In this document: positions 7,100 through 35,229 of the stretch, in pieces | Position numbering within the stretch: position 1 is the stretch's first letter | How the letters are laid out: every line of letters begins with the position of its first letter | Notes under the pieces: generated by a model | Database searches by the model: none | What the model saw: the letters and a program-made list of their open reading frames with translations, nothing else | Told to the model about the DNA's origin: nothing | Program-made: the position numbers and the translations under genes | NCBI GenBank assembly: GCA_025929715.1 | Contig: JAICPS010000003.1 | Coordinates: 1 to 37,296 of the forward strand | Direction: 5' to 3' | From: Anaerolineae bacterium | Lineage (GTDB): Bacteria; Chloroflexota; Anaerolineae; Promineifilales; Promineifilaceae | DNA: 37,296 nucleotides

Positions 7100-7151
7100 G
7101 TGGCGCGAGCTTCCAGCTTGCAAGCCCGCACAAGCAAGATACTTATGCTAC
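7100..7151. repeat. Dispersed repeat copy 1 (52 bp, imperfect palindrome)
   Basis: GTGGCGCGAGCTTCCAGCTTGCAAGCCCGCACAAGCAAGATACTTATGCTAC; 47/52 identical to 30993..31044 without gaps. Confidence 0.85.
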
Positions 7152-19461: not shown

Positions 19462-20448
19462 ATGAGAATTAGACTGACGAGGACGGTCGTTCGCTATGCC
19501 GTTTATGGAGTCCTGTGTGGCGTACTATTCCCGGTTATCGCCACGCTGGTGGATATTTCGTCGCGGGAATTGCCCCTACATCCGTTCAGCGCGCTTTTTG
19601 TGCAGGTGACGCAGCCTCTGCACTGGGTCATCGACAGCATACCCATCGTGCTGGGAGTGATGAGCGGGCTAATCGGAGTAAGGGAGCAAAGGCAGGAACA
19701 GCTAAACCGTGATCTATCGCAGGCTGTCTCGAGACAGACCGCCGAATTGGCCGACGCCAACGAAGCCCAACGCACACGCGCGACAGAGCTTGAGCTAATC
19801 GTGCGCATCGTCCAGCGCGTCTCCGCCATCCTTGATCGGCGCGAACTCGTGACCTCTGTCGTCGATATTATCGGCACAACTCTCGACTATTATCACGTGC
19901 ATATTTACCTCTACGACGAGGAGCGCCAGTTCCTCGTCATACAAGCCGGCACTGGCGAAGCCGGAGCGAGCATGGCTCTACAAGGGCATCGGATAGCGCG
20001 AGGCAAGGGTCTTGTGGGTCGCGCGGCTGAATCGAACCTCCCGGTCGTGGTTCCTGATGTGAATAAGGACGGTGGCTGGTTGCCGAACGCGCTGCTACCT
20101 GAAACGCGCGCCGAGGTTGCCGTACCGATCCGGCGTGCGGACAGGGTGCTTGGCGTACTTGACGTTCAACATGACGTCGCCGCGGGTCTTGGCGAAAGTG
20201 ATGCACGGGTGTTGCAGACAATCGCCGATCAGATCGCCGTCGCACTAGAAAATGCACAGCTCTATGAACAGGTGCAGCGGCGCGTGGACCAGGAAATGTT
20301 ATTGAATAGCATTACTCAGAAGATCCAGAACACTATCGAGGTTGATGAGGCGCTGCAGGTGGCTGTTCGCGAGTTGGGGCGTGCCCTGGATGGCGCACAA
20401 GCAAGCGTGCGTATTGTAGGGCGCAACCAGCCAGGAGGCCCGGCGTGA
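19462..20448 (+). CDS. Two-TM + GAF sensor protein without an output domain (GAF cluster ORF1)
   Basis: N-terminal hydrophobic pair, coiled coil, GAF (YYHVHIYLYDEERQFLVIQAGTGEAGASMALQGHRIARGKGLVGRAAESNLPVVVPDVNKDGGWLPNALLPETRAEVAVPIRRADRVLGVLDVQHD). Confidence 0.8.
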   Translation: MRIRLTRTVVRYAVYGVLCGVLFPVIATLVDISSRELPLHPFSALFVQVTQPLHWVIDSIPIVLGVMSGLIGVREQRQEQLNRDLSQAVSRQTAELADANEAQRTRATELELIVRIVQRVSAILDRRELVTSVVDIIGTTLDYYHVHIYLYDEERQFLVIQAGTGEAGASMALQGHRIARGKGLVGRAAESNLPVVVPDVNKDGGWLPNALLPETRAEVAVPIRRADRVLGVLDVQHDVAAGLGESDARVLQTIADQIAVALENAQLYEQVQRRVDQEMLLNSITQKIQNTIEVDEALQVAVRELGRALDGAQASVRIVGRNQPGGPA

Positions 20449-23198
20449 GCGGCCGACGCCTGCGGGATGCTCTACAGCCGGCGCGTCGCTTGCGCCACAT
20501 TCGCCGTCCTCGTCGCTCGCTCTGGCGTCGGATCGAACGGCTCACCGAAGGCGCTTCTCGACTGGCAGCAGGCTCGTTTGACCAGCGCGTGCCGGTGGAA
20601 GGAGACGACGAAATCGCGCAACTGGCGCAAGCTTTTAACAGTATGGCCGGCCAATTGCAGACTTCTTATCGAAGTCTGGAAGAACGCGTAACGGAACGTA
20701 CGCGTGCCTTGGAGACGAGCTTGCAAATCAGCCGGCGCCTTTCCACGATTCTCGATCAGGAAACGCTGACGCAAGAAGTGGTAGACGAGGTGCAAAGGGC
20801 CTACAACTACTATCACGTTCACATTTATCTGTTTGACCTTGGGCGACAATACCTTTTGATGGTTGGCGGTACCGGCGAAGCGGGACGCGCCATGCTGCTG
20901 CGCGGACACCGGCTTAAGGCGGGACAGGGACTGGTGGGTCGCGCAGCGTCACGCAATGAGATCATGCTGGTCCCTGATGTACGTGAGGCGCCTGATTGGC
21001 TCCCGAATCCACTACTTCCCGATACCAAGTCCGAGCTTGCCGTGCCAATTACGTTCGACGGGAAAGTACAGGGCGTGCTAGATGTGCAGCATAATGTCGT
21101 CGGCGGTCTGGACAGCGGTGATGTAGACTTGCTCCAGACGATAGCGGCGCAGTTGGCGGTGGGCCTGCAAAACGCACAGCTGCTGACACAGGTACAAACA
21201 CGCGCCGAGCGCGCCGCACGCATCAATACTATCAGCCAGCGTATTCAACACACGACGAGTGTGGAACAGGCCCTGCAGGTGACAGTGCGTGAACTTGGGG
21301 GCGCGCTGCCGGTGAGCAGCGCCTATATCGAGCTGGAAGCACAGTCGCAGAGCCGCATTAACGAAACCTGGCAGGCGTTCCTAAACGCAATTGATCGCCC
21401 TGAGCGGCTGGTCTATTGTTATGCTGGGGGCATCGTCAGCGCCGAGCCCAAATTAAATGTGATCGACGCTGTAGGCGAGAACTCGCTCAATGCGTCGTTA
21501 GAAGTTAAGAACGAACTCATCGGCCATGTCCGTCTGAATCCTCAGCCTCAACAGCACTGGACGCCTCAGGATCTGGAACTCCTGGAAGCGGTCGCTGCGG
21601 TAGTGGCGCAACAGGTGGAGAACCTGCGCCTGCTGGCTGAAGCCGAGCATTACCGCGAAGAAGCGGAGAAGGCGTTGCGCCGCTTCACACGTGAGCAATG
21701 GGAGGAGCCGGACGCCGGACCCGGGGGCTATCTTTATGACGGACGGTTGGTCACTCCTCTATTGATCGACGATGGTGTGCATGACATTGCACGACCCCTC
21801 CTCGTCCGTGGCGAGCGCGTCGGCGAATTGATGGTCGACGTTGAGGGTCTTTCACCGGCTAACGAAGCGGCAGAACTGGTGTCGGCAGTCGCCGCGCGCC
21901 TAAGCGCTCACGTCGAAAATCTACGTTTATCCCGACAAACAGAGATTGCGTTGGCCGACGTGCAGCGTCGTAGCGACGAACTGGCCCACCTGAATCGCGT
22001 CGTAACGCGTATTGCGGCGACGTTGGATTTGCGCAACAGCCTGCAAATTGTTGTCGAAGAACTGGTGGCTGTCACGGCGGCCGATCAGGCGCGTATCGGG
22101 CTGCTCAATGGAGAGCGCTCGGCATTGAAGATCGTTTCCGAACAATTCGACGAAAGCCGGTCGCCGAGCGCCCTGGGTCTTGAGATTCCGGTCGAAGGTA
22201 ATGCCTTGACCCAGGAAGTGCTCTCTACGGCAAGACCGGTGGTGATTCGGGATGCGCAAAATCATCCGCTGACAGCGCCAATTCGAGGAATGCTGTACGA
22301 GCAGGGAATTCAGACGATGATCGTGCTGCCGATTATGGCCGGCAACGAAATCATTGGCACAGTTGGCGCCGACATTTTGAGTATGGACGTCGACTTCGGC
22401 GCCGAAGATCTGCGGCTGGCAGAGATGGTCGTCTTCCAGGCAGCGACCGCTATTCAGAATGCGCGTTTGTTCGAGCAGGTCCAGACCACCCTTGCCGAAA
22501 CGCGCGCTCTTTATCGGGCTAGCGCCGAGCTAAATCGGGCTCGCAGCTACGATGATCTGTTAGACGTTCTGCGCCTGCATTCGGTAGCGGGCGAAGACAG
22601 CAATATGCTCAGCCTGACGTTGTTTGACGTTCCGTGGACAGATTCTACAACGCCTGAATGGATAAACGTTTTGGCCCACTGGTCGCCGCACCCGGTGCAA
22701 AATCCTACAGTTCGTTTCAGCCTGCAGGATTATCCGGCGCTGAAGATCATGGAACGCGATCGCCAGGCCATGATTGAGGATGTGGCGACCGATTCGCGGT
22801 TGGATTCGCGATCGCGGTGCGCCTTGTTAAATGCGTTTAGGGCGCGAGCGGTGTTGGCGATGCCTCTGGTCGCGGGCGGTCAGTGGATCGGTCATGTAAA
22901 CGTCATGTATCCTGAGCCCCGAAATTTCAGCGAATCGGAACTACAGCAGCTTCGTAATCTTGTTGGACAGGCCGCCGTTGCCGTGCAAAGCATTAACCTG
23001 CTCAAGGAGACGCAGGCCCGAGCGCAGAGGGAGCGCGTTCTGCGCGAAATTACGGCGCGTGTGCGTAGTGTAACGGATATAGACGTCATCATGAAGACCG
23101 CGGTTCGCGAAGTAAGCCGCGCCCTGGAGCGTGACGCGTTCGTCATGCTGGGCGAAGCGTCAAGCAATGGCGAAAACGAAACAGAGCAAGCGGGCTAA
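20445..23198 (+). CDS. HAMP + multi-GAF protein lacking TM and kinase domains (GAF cluster ORF2)
   Basis: HAMP-like IERLTEGASRLAAGSFDQRVPVEGDDEIAQLAQAFNSMAGQL then about 4-5 GAF/GAF-like units; no H-box or HATPase seen. GTG start overlaps ORF1 TGA (GTGA). Confidence 0.75.
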   Translation: MSGRRLRDALQPARRLRHIRRPRRSLWRRIERLTEGASRLAAGSFDQRVPVEGDDEIAQLAQAFNSMAGQLQTSYRSLEERVTERTRALETSLQISRRLSTILDQETLTQEVVDEVQRAYNYYHVHIYLFDLGRQYLLMVGGTGEAGRAMLLRGHRLKAGQGLVGRAASRNEIMLVPDVREAPDWLPNPLLPDTKSELAVPITFDGKVQGVLDVQHNVVGGLDSGDVDLLQTIAAQLAVGLQNAQLLTQVQTRAERAARINTISQRIQHTTSVEQALQVTVRELGGALPVSSAYIELEAQSQSRINETWQAFLNAIDRPERLVYCYAGGIVSAEPKLNVIDAVGENSLNASLEVKNELIGHVRLNPQPQQHWTPQDLELLEAVAAVVAQQVENLRLLAEAEHYREEAEKALRRFTREQWEEPDAGPGGYLYDGRLVTPLLIDDGVHDIARPLLVRGERVGELMVDVEGLSPANEAAELVSAVAARLSAHVENLRLSRQTEIALADVQRRSDELAHLNRVVTRIAATLDLRNSLQIVVEELVAVTAADQARIGLLNGERSALKIVSEQFDESRSPSALGLEIPVEGNALTQEVLSTARPVVIRDAQNHPLTAPIRGMLYEQGIQTMIVLPIMAGNEIIGTVGADILSMDVDFGAEDLRLAEMVVFQAATAIQNARLFEQVQTTLAETRALYRASAELNRARSYDDLLDVLRLHSVAGEDSNMLSLTLFDVPWTDSTTPEWINVLAHWSPHPVQNPTVRFSLQDYPALKIMERDRQAMIEDVATDSRLDSRSRCALLNAFRARAVLAMPLVAGGQWIGHVNVMYPEPRNFSESELQQLRNLVGQAAVAVQSINLLKETQARAQRERVLREITARVRSVTDIDVIMKTAVREVSRALERDAFVMLGEASSNGENETEQAG

Positions 23199-23199
23199 C

Positions 23200-25287
23200 A
23201 TGAGATCCGAGCACCGCCTCTACCTGGCCTGGCGCGAGCACCGCCTGATTGACGCCATTAACCACGTGATTTTTGAAATGGACGAAGGGGGGCAATGGAC
23301 CTTCCTTAATCCGGCCTGGACACAGCTCAGTGGTTATTCCGTCGCCGATAGTCTCGGTTCCGAGTTCCACACATTTTTCCACGCCGACGATCGCGGAGCA
23401 GCAGATGGGCTTTTGCAGCGCGTGCAGGCGGGCGAGGCTGCACAAGCCTTTGTGCGTCTACAAACACGTGATGCGGGCGCGCGATGGGTCAGCATTGAAG
23501 CGCGGTTGGCGCCTGACGAACATGGTGGACTTCCTGTGGTCGTGGGCACGCTGTCAGACGCCGGCGCATTAAAAGAGGTTGAGGCCCGTTTACAGGCCAT
23601 GGCCATCGAAAGTATGCAATTGCGACAGGAAATGGAAGAGCGCATGGCTGAGCTTGACAACCTGCAACGGCTGATGCGTCGGGAAGCATGGCTGCATATG
23701 CAGGCCACTCATGATGGGGGTGTTCGCGGTTACCGCTACGACCGGCGCCTCATGCAACCGGTAGACACCGTCGAAAGCAACCTTTCAACGCTTTCTGCAA
23801 ACGAGCACGAAGCGGCACAGCGGCTGAAAAAGAACCTCACCAGCGCACTACAAGTCCGTGGTCAGAATTTTGGTGTACTAGGCGTAGAAGACGATCCAGC
23901 TAATCCGGTGACGCCTGCCGAGCGTGAACTTCTGGATGCAATATCGCTGCAGGTCGCCGAAGCCATGGAAAATGCCCGGCTTCTGGAACAGACGCAAAAG
24001 CGCGCCGTAGAGTTGGAGACTGTGGCCCGTGTGAGCACGGCAACGTCGACGATCCTGGAGAAAGATAAGTTGTTGCAGGGCGTGGTCGAGCTGACCCGCC
24101 GTAGCTTCAACCTTTATCACGCGCATATTTACCTGCTGAACCCGGAGAACAATGAGCTTATACTGGCTGCCGGCTCTGGTGAAGCAGGCAGGCAGATGGT
24201 TGAGGATGGCTGGCGCATCAATCTGCACCATCCGCGTTCGGTGGTGGGCAACGCGGCAAGAACCCGCAAGGGTATCATCGTCAACGATGTGCGCAAAGAA
24301 ACGGGCTTCCTGGCCAATCCATTGCTGCCGGCAACACGTTCAGAGCTTGCGGTCCCGATGATTTCTGGTAACCGGCTGCTTGGCGTGCTGGACGTGCAGT
24401 CGGACGCTCCTAATTATTTCACGCAGGATGACGTGCGCATTCAATCGGCGCTTGCAGGGCAGGTGGCTACCGCTTTGCAAAATGCCACGTTGTATCAGGA
24501 GCAGATCGAGACCGCCGAGAAATTGCGTGAGTTCGATCGTCTTAAGTCAGAATTTTTAGCCAGCATGAGCCATGAACTGCGCACGCCGCTAAACTCGATC
24601 ATCGGTTTCGCCGACGTACTCCTGGAGGGTATTGATGGTGAGCTTAATGAGCGCATGGAAGAAGACGTGCAGCTTATTCGCAACAGCGGCCAACATTTAC
24701 GCGAGCTAATTGGCGATATCCTGGACATGTCTAAGATTGAAGCAGGCATGATGGACTTGCGCTACGAATCGATTGACGTAACCGCGTTGCGCCACGAGAT
24801 TGAAGGGTTTGCGCGTACGCAATTGATGACCTATGAGAAAGAGCTAGAATTCAATCTGCACATCGGGAAAGGGGTAGGCCTCGTCGAGGCGGACCTCACC
24901 CGCTTCAAGCAGGTGCTCTTTAATCTGGTAAGCAACGCGATCAAATTTACGGCACAGGGAGGCGTTACGCTTTCTATGAACAACGAAGCGGGTATGCTGG
25001 TCGTGCGCGTTGACGACACCGGCATCGGCATCAAAGAGGAAAATATTCCGATTGTTTTCGAGCAGTTCAGACAGGTGGATGGCAGCCTGACCCGCACAGC
25101 CGGTGGTACCGGCCTGGGACTGCCCATCAGCAAGAGCCTGGTTGAGCTACACGGCGGTGAGATCTGGGTAGAAAGTGAAGTGGGCGAAGGAACGTCTTTC
25201 TATTTTTCACTCCCGCTGGAACGACCACGACCGCGACGCACACAGACGGCGGTCAATATTACGGCAACTGAGGGGAATTTGGGATAA
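23200..25287 (+). CDS. PAS-GAF hybrid histidine kinase (GAF cluster ORF3)
   Basis: PAS (AINHVIFEMDEGGQWTFLNPAWTQLSGYSV), GAF, HisKA (SEFLASMSHELRTPLNSIIGFADVLL), HATPase (NLVSNAIKFT, DTGIGI, GTGLGLPISKSLVELHGGEIWVES). Start may instead be ATG 23167. Confidence 0.93.
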   Translation: MRSEHRLYLAWREHRLIDAINHVIFEMDEGGQWTFLNPAWTQLSGYSVADSLGSEFHTFFHADDRGAADGLLQRVQAGEAAQAFVRLQTRDAGARWVSIEARLAPDEHGGLPVVVGTLSDAGALKEVEARLQAMAIESMQLRQEMEERMAELDNLQRLMRREAWLHMQATHDGGVRGYRYDRRLMQPVDTVESNLSTLSANEHEAAQRLKKNLTSALQVRGQNFGVLGVEDDPANPVTPAERELLDAISLQVAEAMENARLLEQTQKRAVELETVARVSTATSTILEKDKLLQGVVELTRRSFNLYHAHIYLLNPENNELILAAGSGEAGRQMVEDGWRINLHHPRSVVGNAARTRKGIIVNDVRKETGFLANPLLPATRSELAVPMISGNRLLGVLDVQSDAPNYFTQDDVRIQSALAGQVATALQNATLYQEQIETAEKLREFDRLKSEFLASMSHELRTPLNSIIGFADVLLEGIDGELNERMEEDVQLIRNSGQHLRELIGDILDMSKIEAGMMDLRYESIDVTALRHEIEGFARTQLMTYEKELEFNLHIGKGVGLVEADLTRFKQVLFNLVSNAIKFTAQGGVTLSMNNEAGMLVVRVDDTGIGIKEENIPIVFEQFRQVDGSLTRTAGGTGLGLPISKSLVELHGGEIWVESEVGEGTSFYFSLPLERPRPRRTQTAVNITATEGNLG

Positions 25288-29336: not shown

Positions 29337-30992
29337 ATGCACGAACGGATACAAAAGCCCTCATCGCACATGCCGATTGATCGCACCCGCTACCGGCGGA
29401 TTACGCGTTTTTTCGCCGGAGTGATCATGCACCTGGCTTGGTGGGATATCTTATTACGTCGGCTGGCGGCGCAACGTGTTCTGGCTTCTCGCCCTGGACG
29501 CTGGCGTAAGCTCTCACGTCGTTTCCGCGAGCTCGCAGTGGAAATGGGCGGTGTTTTGATCAAGCTGGGGCAGTTCCTGAGCACGCGTGTGGACGTCTTG
29601 CCGCCGGAGATCACCGACGAACTTAAGGGATTGCAGGATGAAGTACCCGCGGTTGATTTTGAGGACGTCCGGCAGGTGCTGCACGAAGAGATCGGCGATT
29701 TCAGAGAATGTTTCGAGACAATCGAGGAAGCGCCGTTGGCAGCGGCATCCCTGGGGCAGGTTCACCGCGCCTGGTTGCATCCGCAGGTGGGTGATCAGGC
29801 GCAGAACGGCCGCGCCGTCGTCGTCAAGGTCCAGCGCCCGGGAATTGTGAAGCTTGTGCAGACGGACCTGGCGGCCTTACGAGCGGTGGCGCGCTGGATG
29901 ATGCGCTATAAGCCCATTCGCCGTCGCGCAAACATGCCCGCTCTGCTCGAAGAATTCGCCAACACCCTATGGGAGGAGCTGGACTATGATCAGGAAGCTC
30001 AGAATGCGGAGCGTTTTGCGGAGATGTTTGCCGCAGACGAGGGCGTCTACATTCCTTTCGTTTTTCGCCGCCATTCGACTGCTCGGGTCCTGGTGCTAGA
30101 AAACGTCGAAGCGATAAAGATCGTCGATCTCGACGCGCTGGACGCCGCGCAGATCAGCCGCAGCGAGGTGGCCGACCGCCTCCTGGACACCTATTTTCGT
30201 CAGATTTTTCGCGAAGGATTCTTCCACGCCGACCCGCATCCCGGAAACCTTTTTATCCAGCCACGAGATGACGCGCCGTGGACGCCCCAAAACGGGTCGC
30301 GCCCGTTCCGCCTAATCTTTGTAGACTTCGGAATGGTCGGCCGTATCGAGTCGCTGATGGGCGAGAACCTGACCAAGATTCTGGTGAGTGTCACGCAGAG
30401 AGATGCGCGCGCGCTCACCGAGGCCTACCGCGATTTGGGGTTTTTTCTACCTGGCGCTGACCTCGAACGAATTACCGAAGTACAGGCGCAGTTGCTGGAC
30501 GAACTTTGGGGCCGGAATCTGTTGGAATTAGCGCGGCCCGATCCACGTGAAGTTCAGCAGCTCACCAGAGAGTTCAGAGACCTTCTCTTTGATTTTCCCT
30601 TCCAGGCGCCGCAAGATTTCGTCTATCTCGGCAGGACGCTAGGTATTCTCTCTGGTCTGGCCTCATTCCTCAATCCGCAAATTAATCCCTGGTACCAGGT
30701 CGAGAAGTATGGGCGAGCGCTCATCCGCTCGAAAGAGGTGAGACAGGCAGGCTGGGAGAGCGTGTTGCAGAGTCTGAAGCCTCTGGTTACCCTTCCAGCC
30801 CAGCTCCAGCGTGTTCTTGCGGCTGCGGAGGAGGGTCGCTTGCGCATTGAGGCTGTGCCGGATCGCAAGACAGTGCGCCAGCTACAGCGCATGGAACGCA
30901 GCATCAGGCAGTTACAGGTCGCGATACTGGCGGCAGCGGGTGCGATTGCCGGGACGCTGCTTTATCTGGCACGCAAGTGGAGCGACGATTGA
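29337..30992 (+). CDS. ABC1/UbiB (AarF) family atypical kinase
   Basis: LIKLGQFLSTRVDVLPPEITDELKGLQDEVPAVDFEDVRQVL...EEAPLAAASLGQVHRAWL...VVVKVQRPGI...EGFFHADPHPGNLFI...FVDFGMVGRI. Confidence 0.95.
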   Translation: MHERIQKPSSHMPIDRTRYRRITRFFAGVIMHLAWWDILLRRLAAQRVLASRPGRWRKLSRRFRELAVEMGGVLIKLGQFLSTRVDVLPPEITDELKGLQDEVPAVDFEDVRQVLHEEIGDFRECFETIEEAPLAAASLGQVHRAWLHPQVGDQAQNGRAVVVKVQRPGIVKLVQTDLAALRAVARWMMRYKPIRRRANMPALLEEFANTLWEELDYDQEAQNAERFAEMFAADEGVYIPFVFRRHSTARVLVLENVEAIKIVDLDALDAAQISRSEVADRLLDTYFRQIFREGFFHADPHPGNLFIQPRDDAPWTPQNGSRPFRLIFVDFGMVGRIESLMGENLTKILVSVTQRDARALTEAYRDLGFFLPGADLERITEVQAQLLDELWGRNLLELARPDPREVQQLTREFRDLLFDFPFQAPQDFVYLGRTLGILSGLASFLNPQINPWYQVEKYGRALIRSKEVRQAGWESVLQSLKPLVTLPAQLQRVLAAAEEGRLRIEAVPDRKTVRQLQRMERSIRQLQVAILAAAGAIAGTLLYLARKWSDD

Positions 30993-31044
30993 GTGGCGTA
31001 AGCTTCCAGCTTGCAAGCCCGCGCAAGCAAGATGCTTATGCTAG
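30993..31044. repeat. Dispersed repeat copy 2 (52 bp, imperfect palindrome)
   Basis: GTGGCGTAAGCTTCCAGCTTGCAAGCCCGCGCAAGCAAGATGCTTATGCTAG; begins right after the UbiB-family stop codon. Confidence 0.85.
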
Positions 31045-31117: not shown

Positions 31118-31963
31118 CTAGCCAACCAACCGTGCGCGGAGGATACGATCAAGCCGGAAAGTACGTTGCGCCTGCCGCATGTGGCAGAAAGCGATGACGT
31201 AGACCATTCCATCCTGTTCGCTGGCATAGAGCGGGCTGATCACCCGATCGGTTTCACCGCTACTTGTTTGATAGCGAATTTCTAGGGAGCAACGTCGCGA
31301 AAGCGCCTCGGCGAGTGGGAGCGGCAGAGACGGTGGCTGCCGCCAGGGAACATATATAGCGCCGCCCTGTGCGTGCAGCACATCGCCAACTGTATGCAAA
31401 TGCAACTTTTCCATCTGTTGCGCCATGCGCCTGAGAATGCCGATGGTCGTGTGTGCGTCGTTGAGCGCGCGATGTGAGCGGCCGGTGGGCACGCCCAGGC
31501 GGCGTGCGACATTTCCGAGGCTGTTTCGATCGAAGTAAAACAGGCGGCGTGCCAGTTGTAATGTGCAGATCCAGGCATTGGAAATGGTCAGGGTAGGGGC
31601 GGTGGTTGACGGCGGGGGCAGGAGAGCATATTCCATGCCCAGGAAGGCCGCGTCAAAGCGGGCGTTGTGCGCGACCAGCACCGCGCCGTCCAAAACCTCC
31701 CATAGGCGCTGCGCAATGCTGGAGAACGGCGGCGCGTCGACAAGATCTTCATCGTAGATCCCATTGACGCGCGAGGCGCCGGCATCCATGGGACGGCCGG
31801 GATTGACGATCTCGTTGAAGGTGGCCAGCTCATGCCATCCTTCCAGGCGCACGGCGGCGACTTCCACAACACGATGGCCGAGCGCGGGCGACAAACCGGT
31901 CGTTTCGGTATCCAGCACGACCAGCGGCGCCTGCGATAGATCCCGTTCCAGTAGACCCTCCAT
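31118..31963 (-). CDS. DnaQ-like (DEDDh) 3'-5' exonuclease with C-terminal WYL-like domain
   Basis: ExoI VVLDTETTGLSP, ExoII VAHNARFDAAFL, ExoIII HRALNDAHTT; C-terminus LAEALSRRCSLEIRYQTSSGETDRVISPLYASEQDGMVYVIAFCHMRQAQRTFRLDRILRARLVG matches the WYL pattern. Confidence 0.85.
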   Translation of the reverse strand: MEGLLERDLSQAPLVVLDTETTGLSPALGHRVVEVAAVRLEGWHELATFNEIVNPGRPMDAGASRVNGIYDEDLVDAPPFSSIAQRLWEVLDGAVLVAHNARFDAAFLGMEYALLPPPSTTAPTLTISNAWICTLQLARRLFYFDRNSLGNVARRLGVPTGRSHRALNDAHTTIGILRRMAQQMEKLHLHTVGDVLHAQGGAIYVPWRQPPSLPLPLAEALSRRCSLEIRYQTSSGETDRVISPLYASEQDGMVYVIAFCHMRQAQRTFRLDRILRARLVG

Positions 31964-32016: not shown

Positions 32017-32985
32017 TTAGCACCGCGCCTGTTCGAGCCACTCGCAAACGCTGGCGGTAGATACGTTGGCCCCGCACAGAACGACGGCGACGCGTTCGCC
32101 GGGCGTCACAGCTATTTTGCCATTCACAAGCGCCGCCAGGCAGCAGGCGGTCGCCGGCTCGGCCAGTAGTTTCTCTTTCACGAGCAATTCGGCGACCGCT
32201 CCCGTCGCTTCGGCGTCTGTAACCGTGACGACGTCGTCCGCATACCGCTGCACAATCTGGAAAGGAATTTCGCCCGGCCGGCGCGCGCCCAGACTCTCCA
32301 CAAGGGAGGTGATGGCGGGCAACTCCACGACCTCGCCCGCCTGCAGGCTCTGGTACATGCTGTCCGCTCCCATTGTTTCCACGCCAATCACGCGTGTGGC
32401 CGGTCGCAACTGTTTGACGGTTGAAATCACCCCGGCTATGAGCCCGCCGCCGCCAATGGACACGACGACGAGATCCACTTCGCGGAGCTGCTCCTCCAGC
32501 TCCATGATCATCGTGCCGGCGCCGGCCATCATATGGCGGTTGTCGAAAGGATGAACGTAAGTGCGCCCCGTCTGCGCCGCGACCTCCAGCGCCAGCCGGT
32601 TGGCGTCATCCCAGGCATCGCCGTGGAGCATGACCTCGGCACTCAGCGCGCGAATGGCTTCAATCTTGATTTGGGGCGTCCGTTTGGGCAGATAGATAGT
32701 CGCCGATACGCCCAGCAGGCGCGCAATATACGAGAGCGCCAGCCCGTGGTTTCCTCCCGAGGCAGTGATCATGCCGCGAGCCAGCTCGTCGTCCGTCAGA
32801 CTCAGAGCCGCGTTGCACGCCCCACGCACCTTAAATGAATGCGTGGGCAGCAGAGTCTCTAGTTTGAGATATATTTTAGCTCCGGTCAGCTCACTGTAAT
32901 GCGCTGAGCGATGCACCGGCGTCGGTGCCAGGTATTCGCCGATGCGCTCACGGGCTGCAATGATTTCGGGTAGGGGAATAAGCAC
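32017..32985 (-). CDS. PLP-dependent threonine/serine dehydratase-like enzyme
   Basis: YLKLETLLPTHSFKVRGACNAALSL, ASGGNHGLALSYIARLLGVSATIYLP, VSIGGGGLIAGV. GTG start at 32985 with SD AAAGGA preferred over the 33045 ATG. Confidence 0.88.
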   Translation of the reverse strand: MLIPLPEIIAARERIGEYLAPTPVHRSAHYSELTGAKIYLKLETLLPTHSFKVRGACNAALSLTDDELARGMITASGGNHGLALSYIARLLGVSATIYLPKRTPQIKIEAIRALSAEVMLHGDAWDDANRLALEVAAQTGRTYVHPFDNRHMMAGAGTMIMELEEQLREVDLVVVSIGGGGLIAGVISTVKQLRPATRVIGVETMGADSMYQSLQAGEVVELPAITSLVESLGARRPGEIPFQIVQRYADDVVTVTDAEATGAVAELLVKEKLLAEPATACCLAALVNGKIAVTPGERVAVVLCGANVSTASVCEWLEQARC

Positions 32986-33022
32986 GGTTGATTCCTTTGT
33001 TTGCGTATAATTTATGGCGTTG

Positions 33023-33028
33023 ATTATA
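33023..33028 (-). promoter_or_regulatory. Putative extended -10 (TGC-TATAAT) for the dehydratase gene
   Basis: Minus strand CAGTGCTATAATCAACG about 38 nt upstream of the GTG start; -35 not clear. Confidence 0.45.
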
Positions 33029-33076
33029 GCACTGTAGCAGAACACAAATACGCTTCAAGAAATGGCATAATTCTTT

Positions 33077-33210: not shown

Positions 33211-35229
33211 ATGAGAAGCGAATTTATCTTAGCGTTTAACGAAATCTGCGAGGAACGTGGTCTGGCGAAGGACGTCGTCTTTGAGGCTTTGGAGACGGCC
33301 CTGGCCTCCGCTTACCGGCGCAATGTCAACGTTAGCAATACCCAGGAAATTCGGGTGGAAATTGACCAGCGTACCGGTGAACCGACGATCTACGCGGAGA
33401 AAGAGGTCGTGGATTCGATCATCGACAATCGAACCGAGGTGCTGCTTGAAGAAGCGCAGCGGCAAGGATTTACCGACGCACAAATGGGTGACACGGTGAT
33501 GGTCGTGAGCACACCACGAAACTTTGGGCGTATCGCGGCGCAAACGGCCAAACAGGTCATTTTGCAGCGCGTGCGCGAAGCCGAGCGCGAGCAGCTCTAT
33601 GAAGAGTTCCTGGACCGCGAAGGCGAAATTGTCAATGGCACGGTGCAGAGCGTCGGCGGACAGCATATCACGATTGGTCTGGGACGGACCGAGGCCATCA
33701 TGCCCCGCAGCCAGCAAGTGCGCAGCGAGCGGTACCGCCCGCACGACAAAATCCGCGTTTATCTTCTCGAAGTACGGCGCACAAACCGGGGTCCCCAAAT
33801 CGTGGTCAGCCGCAATCATCGCAACCTGCTACGCCGACTCTTAGAGCTTGAAGTGCCCGAAATATATAATGGGCAGGTTGATGTTAAGAGCATCGCCCGT
33901 GAAGCTGGCGCCCGGTCCAAGGTCGCCGTCGTCGCGCTGCAAGAAGGCGTGGATCCCGTCGGCGCGTGTGTTGGCATGCGCGGCGTGCGCATTCAAAGTA
34001 TCGTGCGCGAGCTGAATGACGAAAAGATCGACGTGATCGAGTGGGATCCTGATCCCAAGACGTTCATTGCCAAGGCCCTGAGCCCGGCGCGTGTCTCGCA
34101 GGTGCATCTGGACGACCATCCTGACGAGGGCAAGACGGCGATCGTCATTGTTCCTGACGACCAGTTGTCTTTGGCGATTGGTCGCGAGGGGCAAAATGCG
34201 CGCCTGGCAGCCAAACTGACCGGCTGGCGCATCGACATTAAGAGCCTGACGGAATCGGCTGTAGAGTCCCTGAGTAATCTGGACCATCCTGCCGCCGATC
34301 GCCGCGTCACCGCTGACAAGGATCTGGTGGAAAAGGCACAGCATATTTTGGCCAAGAAAGAGGCCGAGCGTCCCATTACGGCCGAAGATTACCTGGTTCT
34401 GGATCGTTTCGTGGCCGGCGTCGAGGGACGTGTAATCGACCAGCGCGCCGCGGATTACGAAGCAGTACGGAAAGAACGCGCCGCCGCGCGTAAGCTGATT
34501 CCGGATATAGCCTGGGATCTGGAGCTGGAAGAACTCGACTTACCGTTGAGCGTGCACAATCTTTTACTGGATCAGGGACTCACTTCGGTTGGCGACGTAC
34601 TTTACCGGCTGGAACTGGGTGACGAGGCGTTGCTGCGCATTGACGGCATCGACGACGAAGCGCTCGAAACCATCCACAGGCGAGTCGCCGAGACCGAAGA
34701 ACTCTGGCTTGAAGCCGAAGAAGCGTTGGAAGCGATTCCAGCCGAAGAGGTTGCGGCTGAGGCGGAAGTCGAGGGCGTCGCCGGCGGCGAGGAAGATGCC
34801 GCCGTTGAAGAAATCGACGAAGAAGTTGTGGTAGAAGAAGAGCCGGTACTCGAAGCCGAGGCAGTGGAAGAAGCTGGCGACATGGCAGCGGCCGAAGTTG
34901 CCGAAGCAGAAGTTGCCGAAGAAGAAGTTCACGAAGAGGAAATTCCGGCTATCGACGATCTTTCCACTTCACTGGTTGAGCCCAGACAACCGGAAAAGGA
35001 TGAACGTAAGAAGAAGGGCAAGGTCGTCGTGGTCTCGCGTACCCCTGGGGGTCGCGGTGAAGAAGAAGGCGAAGAGGACGAAACGGCCGATCAGCGCAAG
35101 GGCCGCCGTCTGGTCTTTGACGAAGAAGCCGGCCGCGTGGTCACCAAGCGCAAGCGCAAAGGTGGACGGCGCCGGCCGGAATGGGAAGAATTCGAGGATA
35201 TGGACATCGATGAACTCCTCGAAGACTAA
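33211..35229 (+). CDS. nusA: Transcription termination/antitermination factor NusA with long acidic/basic C-terminal extension
   Basis: N-terminal [35 protein letters not shown]1/KH core ([77 protein letters not shown]). Confidence 0.97.

Follow-up and report, generated by a model that had tools for sequence, protein, structure and literature searches.

A DEDDh exonuclease fused to a WYL domain in Anaerolineae, with a conserved groove predicted to bind single-stranded DNA and a probable repeated loss of catalytic residues among its relatives

The window analysed here, a stretch of 37,296 nucleotides from contig JAICPS010000003.1 of an Anaerolineae bacterium, carries a gene for a DEDDh exonuclease-WYL fusion at positions 31118..31963 of the minus strand (281 aa, stop codon included in the coordinates). 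The sequence-only reading had placed it at 31121-31963 and given no strand; the open reading frame does exist, but it lies on the minus strand and reaches 31118 with its stop codon, while the plus strand holds stops. An RNase_T/DnaQ-like DEDDh exonuclease domain occupies residues 15-176 (31436..31921, minus; Pfam PF00929, E 3.3e-28, and Foldseek). Its catalytic motifs, described in that reading as intact, are all found in the window protein: D18 and E20 in the ExoI motif DTE (31904..31912, minus), D104 in the ExoII motif HNARFD of residues 99-104 (31652..31669, minus), and H164 and D169 in the ExoIII motif HRALND (31457..31474, minus), the last being the motif that is decaying in relatives of family f2. 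The linker that follows (residues 177-216; 31316..31435, minus) consists of the end of a long helix, a helix at 192-199 and a lower-confidence stretch. Residues 217-278 (31130..31315, minus) form the WYL domain, an Sm-like barrel without the C-terminal WCX extension, as placed by Pfam, the structure model and Foldseek. The residues assigned to its groove from profile alignment, published PafB mutants and conservation (R240, Y255, C260, R263, R267, R270 and R273) lie at 31145..31246 (minus). RNase_T and WYL are the only Pfam domains above cut-off; N-terminal HTH and C-terminal WCX domains are absent from the window protein, which ends about three residues past the WYL domain.

The fusion gene is convergent with an ABC1/UbiB-type kinase gene (29337-30992, plus strand), and a PLP-dependent enzyme gene (32017-33045, minus strand) lies 53 bp upstream of it; a NusA gene (33211-35229) and a YlxR gene are also among its neighbours. 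An operon with the PLP-enzyme gene was considered, given the 53 bp gap, and set aside, as the pairing is not conserved. No neighbour family is conserved over 42 fusion loci, nor within f2. A cyanophycinase/S51-peptidase-like gene occurs on the same strand ~800-1200 bases upstream of the fusion in about 7 to 10 f2 genomes, that of L214 included, which is probably plain synteny. PADLOC matches the fusion protein (P0001) to DEDDh (2e-38) and WYL (1e-12) CRISPR-associated models and to the candidate defence family PDC-S48 (6e-44), each match spanning one domain only, and gives no convincing match for the window neighbours. Elsewhere in the window, a 41-base intergenic repeat, AAGCTTCCAGCTTGCAAGCCCGCGCAAGCAAGATGCTTATG, is present at 7107-7147 and 31000-31040 (plus strand, 3 mismatches), and a third copy, of its last 27 bases, was located elsewhere in the genome (G000 contig C338:3568-3594). 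Of these copies, the one at 31000 falls in the gap where the genes of the ABC1 kinase and the fusion converge, and this region does not fold better than shuffles do (z -1.27). At 19462-25287, plus strand, three consecutive and slightly overlapping open reading frames (328, 917 and 718 aa) appear to consist of repeated GAF-type and histidine-kinase segments, the overlaps suggesting one frameshift-split gene or a recently broken multi-sensor kinase.

Our results confirm that a DEDDh exonuclease is fused here to a genuine WYL domain. The WYL pattern noticed earlier at the C-terminus is borne out by PF13280, which scores 55.8 bits (E 4.7e-15) over residues 217-278 against a curated cut-off of 21.8, and the C-terminus is not a known exonuclease accessory domain, the significant Foldseek matches being without any nuclease accessory domain. 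Many other genomes carry the fusion at full length and with the same domain order, so it is not a frameshift or assembly artefact. An AlphaFold2 model of the whole protein (19 family members) has a mean pLDDT of 91.2 and a pTM of 0.86, and the WYL domain modelled alone (the C-terminal 71 residues) reaches a pLDDT of 96.8. For the whole model, the best Foldseek matches are the PolC exonuclease (E 7e-13) and E. coli epsilon, with RNase T and ERI also among the fold matches; by both sequence and fold, the exonuclease domain is nearest to the PolC/epsilon DNA exonucleases. An ExoI-like whole-chain architecture is not claimed, since the Foldseek alignment is obtained only at about 14 Å rmsd. The isolated WYL model resembles solved five-stranded Sm-like barrels (TM 0.86, rmsd 1.1 to 6sj9) and matches the WYL domains of PafBC, CapW, BrxR and DriD, including ssDNA-bound structures of CapW and DriD.

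Searched against solved structures, a profile of the fused WYL domain matches PafBC (E 2.7e-21), Pif1-type AAA ATPases (E 7.8e-13) and PafC (E 2e-11). In the profile alignment, PafB R181, Y196, R204, R208, R211 and R214 correspond, respectively, to R240, Y255, R263, R267, R270 and R273 of the window protein; these PafB numbers are those of the paper and equal R183/Y198/R206/R210/R213/R216 of the chain, a two-residue shift inferred from the matching residue pattern. PafC R201 and R204, numbered with zero shift, both have counterparts in the window protein. Each of the changes R181A, Y196A, R181A/R204A/R208A and R211A/R214A abolishes the binding of ssDNA by PafB (PMC11804915). Among the 113 distinct fusions, Y231, R240, C260, R267 and F269 are invariant (113/113), and R263 (in 109), R273 (in 108) and R270 (in 107) are nearly so. 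The nucleic-acid-binding role that had been predicted for the WYL module fits these findings well, as the PafB set of ssDNA-binding residues is complete and the groove is conserved; the match is strong though indirect evidence, drawn from sequence comparison, that the window protein would bind a strand.

A profile search (E 1e-40) of 396 genomes sampled from the class found relatives of the fusion in 85, a single one in each; a few of the weaker matches are partial. In family f2, relatives are in 73 of 152 genomes. Fused members are present in other classes of the phylum too (G011, G081, G150, G252 and G267), and a phylum-wide scan using the linker and WYL domain recovered many fusions. A scan of genome contigs gave a single fused relative, L034, from a Chloroflexi MAG (55% identity), the neighbour layout of which matches a contig of G659, a member of the window genome's family. 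Phage, plasmid and viral collections yielded no fused copy: the matches listed reach the exonuclease part alone, none of the phage or plasmid matches spans 80% of the query, and a family profile scored no viral open reading frame as WYL. In the exonuclease-domain tree, 35 fusions and one outsider group together at 97%, against 70 non-fused sequences. A tree forcing the fusions into one clade outscored the free tree and was not rejected (p-AU 0.61), so that a single fusion origin is compatible with the data. The distribution is patchy but mainly vertical. As a separate observation, L011 (G367:C16:3922-4107, minus) is an open reading frame of 570+ aa with a WYL domain at residues 503-562 and no exonuclease-domain match; similar open frames of 700-800 aa with WYL-like matches occur in G192, G323, G353 and G094, and these proteins are possibly helicase-associated.

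The five catalytic residues are intact in 71 of the 113 distinct fusions, and at least one of them is lost in 41. The one other sequence (L029) seemed to be without ExoI, but it is masked (N) and was left out of the loss count. All 41 losses fall within f2, in which 60 distinct sequences were examined, and none of the 52 other scored fusions is affected. The substitutions are H164S (n=34), H164R (n=2), E20K together with H164R (n=2) and D169G (n=3), and each of these states forms one clade in the tree, with support of 99-100. There were probably four separate catalytic losses in f2, a count obtained by parsimony, where five changes were computed and one of them is the masked L029. The WYL residues Y231, R240, P244, Y255, C260, R263, R267, F269, R270, D272 and R273 are unchanged in every one of the 41 catalytic-loss sequences. 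Nei-Gojobori dN/dS values, which are approximate because many pairs are near saturation, are 0.146 for the exonuclease and 0.088 for the WYL domain in the clade carrying serine at position 164, and 0.090 and 0.068, respectively, in intact f2 relatives. Both domains are under purifying selection in f2 despite the catalytic loss.

Exonuclease-DinG paralogues keep all five residues in two Ser-type genomes and in one D169G genome. Sequencing error or a lineage-wide oddity was rejected as the cause of the loss, given the intact paralogues, the single supported clade for each substitution and the low dN/dS; the paralogues and dN/dS mean that the loss is specific to the fusion protein, which itself stays under selection. 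Replacement of the lost histidine by a DEDDy tyrosine was rejected as well, the Ser clade being without tyrosine at the Yx3D position (26 R, 5 Q and 3 H). The f2 substitutions would presumably abolish cutting. The Ser clade retains all four acidic metal ligands, so that weak activity or metal-dependent 3'-end binding may still be possible in it. As judged from sequence, the protein has probably turned, in f2, into a catalytically dead binder of ssDNA or ssDNA ends.

We regard the window protein, with about even confidence, as a housekeeping enzyme, a 3'-5' exonuclease that acts on ssDNA and carries a WYL ssDNA-binding module. It would be a stand-alone DnaQ/PolC-type 3'-5' exonuclease in which the C-terminal WYL domain acts as a built-in single-stranded nucleic-acid-binding module, its groove most likely holding the strand on the 5' side of the 3' terminus, while that terminus enters the DEDDh active site. 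Such holding would raise the affinity for ssDNA tails or gaps from replication and repair, and the clamp would resemble the C-terminal WYL domain of Pif1 helicases, which holds the strand leaving the motor; in TePif1, the WYL domain was reported to bind ssDNA and to be required for helicase activity (PMC9964779). The protein would then serve in accessory genome maintenance of a housekeeping kind, not in dedicated defence. We infer the substrate (ssDNA rather than RNA), the polarity, the clamp geometry and the physiological role.

Since the WYL groove is kept after catalysis is lost, clamping for the nuclease cannot be the whole function of the WYL domain, and the repeated catalytic loss means that binding is valuable in its own right. 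Strand holding would be the most conserved property of the protein, kept more tightly than cutting; the protein may combine the roles of clamp and sensor, or else its main product could be an occupied ssDNA end. A bolder proposal, which we advance tentatively and think rather improbable, is that the family is primarily a binder or sensor of ssDNA or its ends built on an exonuclease scaffold, with cutting optional. The roughly four turns in f2 would then have led to a WYL pseudo-nuclease whose unchanged groove serves to mark, protect or signal ssDNA ends, a non-transcriptional WYL component acting in DNA damage.

The main rival to a clamp is ligand gating in trans, the kind of model raised in the sequence-only reading, which is possible. 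Here the WYL domain would be an allosteric sensor, and the exonuclease would be switched on or off when that domain binds a signal in the form of short ssDNA, an oligonucleotide or a nucleotide. The activity of PafBC is switched when ssDNA occupies the same groove (PMC11804915), ssDNA-bound DriD and CapW are among the WYL structure matches, and the groove is near-invariant in the fusions, all of which would suit a sensor. However, in WYL transcription factors of the switching kind a WCX domain is usually present as well (PMC6789036), and the window protein has no room for one. Moreover, gating of a nuclease cannot explain the conservation of the groove in the 41 relatives that lost catalysis, which weakens it as a family-wide function, and we consider a sensor of this kind doubtful for the window protein. 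It appears unlikely that the protein is instead an exoribonuclease, or an enzyme of RNA processing, whose Sm/Hfq-like WYL domain binds RNA. The WYL fold is indeed Sm-like, RNase T and ERI match the exonuclease fold, and fusions of WYL with a 3'->5' exoRNase are listed by Makarova et al. 2014 (PMC4012209), but DNA exonucleases are the best matches in sequence and fold alike, and the groove equals that of ssDNA-binding WYL domains residue for residue.

It is very unlikely that the fusion serves these bacteria as epsilon, the proofreading subunit in replication, a role that equivalog scores and near-complete relatives lacking the fusion both disfavour. The window genome has just two RNase_T-family genes, the fusion and an exonuclease-DinG helicase, so that no separate classical epsilon was found, and PolC exonuclease and epsilon are the closest fold matches; yet the window protein falls below the equivalog cut-offs of TIGR01406 (117.2 vs 222.7 bits) and NF004316 (112.7 vs 196 bits). 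Fusion-less relatives typically have a single RNase_T match, of the ~940-960-aa exonuclease-helicase type, so that the fusion is dispensable and no universal proofreader; G372, of the same family and 99% complete in 3 contigs, has no fusion and one such match of ~960 aa. The linker, itself unconserved among the fusions, shows by eye no conserved clamp-binding motif, catalysis is gone in many relatives, and two large open frames of 1264 and 1037 aa contain PHP and could proofread. The sequence-only reading had named a defence enzyme as one possibility; a dedicated anti-phage or CRISPR-associated nuclease is scarcely credible in spite of the PADLOC matches, because the window neighbours are housekeeping genes, the survey of 42 loci and f2 gave no conserved partner or defence context and ruled out a defence island, viral contigs, phages and plasmids are without a fused copy, and the gene spreads mainly vertically, if patchily, as one copy per genome.

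Makarova et al. 2014 (PMC4012209) apparently list the same architecture class, which is thus already known; the main text gives it one line, and no analysis of residues, distribution or catalytic loss of the fusion was found there. No paper describing the fusion family was found in the open literature, subscription papers and the 2014 supplement being beyond its scope, and the open papers searched seem to report neither the groove match nor the repeated loss of catalysis. What is added here is the spread over Chloroflexota, the complete ssDNA-groove match and the recurrent decay of catalysis while the groove stayed frozen. WYL domains have been studied almost entirely in transcription factors, and the widespread nuclease-WYL family, with its full PafB set of ssDNA-binding residues, offers a small single-chain system for asking whether a WYL domain clamps the substrate or works as a switch. 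In it, binding and cutting are already set apart by the natural range of intact and decayed relatives, with no need for engineering.

E. coli epsilon (DnaQ) and PolC have the DEDDh fold and the five catalytic residues in common with the window protein; epsilon, however, has a polymerase-binding tail where the window protein has its WYL domain. E. coli Exonuclease I (SbcB) combines a DEDDh domain and an SH3-like barrel in one chain. It too is a Foldseek match, with 14-16% identity over the poorly superposed whole chain, but its accessory domains are not WYL. PafBC, DriD, CapW and BrxR have the WYL fold in common with the fusion, and PafBC also the ssDNA-binding arginines and tyrosine, yet these are regulators, whereas the window protein is an enzyme. 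The Pif1 helicases, second-best PDB profile match of the fused WYL domain, are represented by TePif1, DdPif1 and SsPif1 (PMC9964779; PDB 8bnv/8bns), each an ssDNA-acting enzyme with one C-terminal WYL domain and the same basic groove, in which an SF1 helicase motor stands where the window protein has a DEDDh exonuclease.
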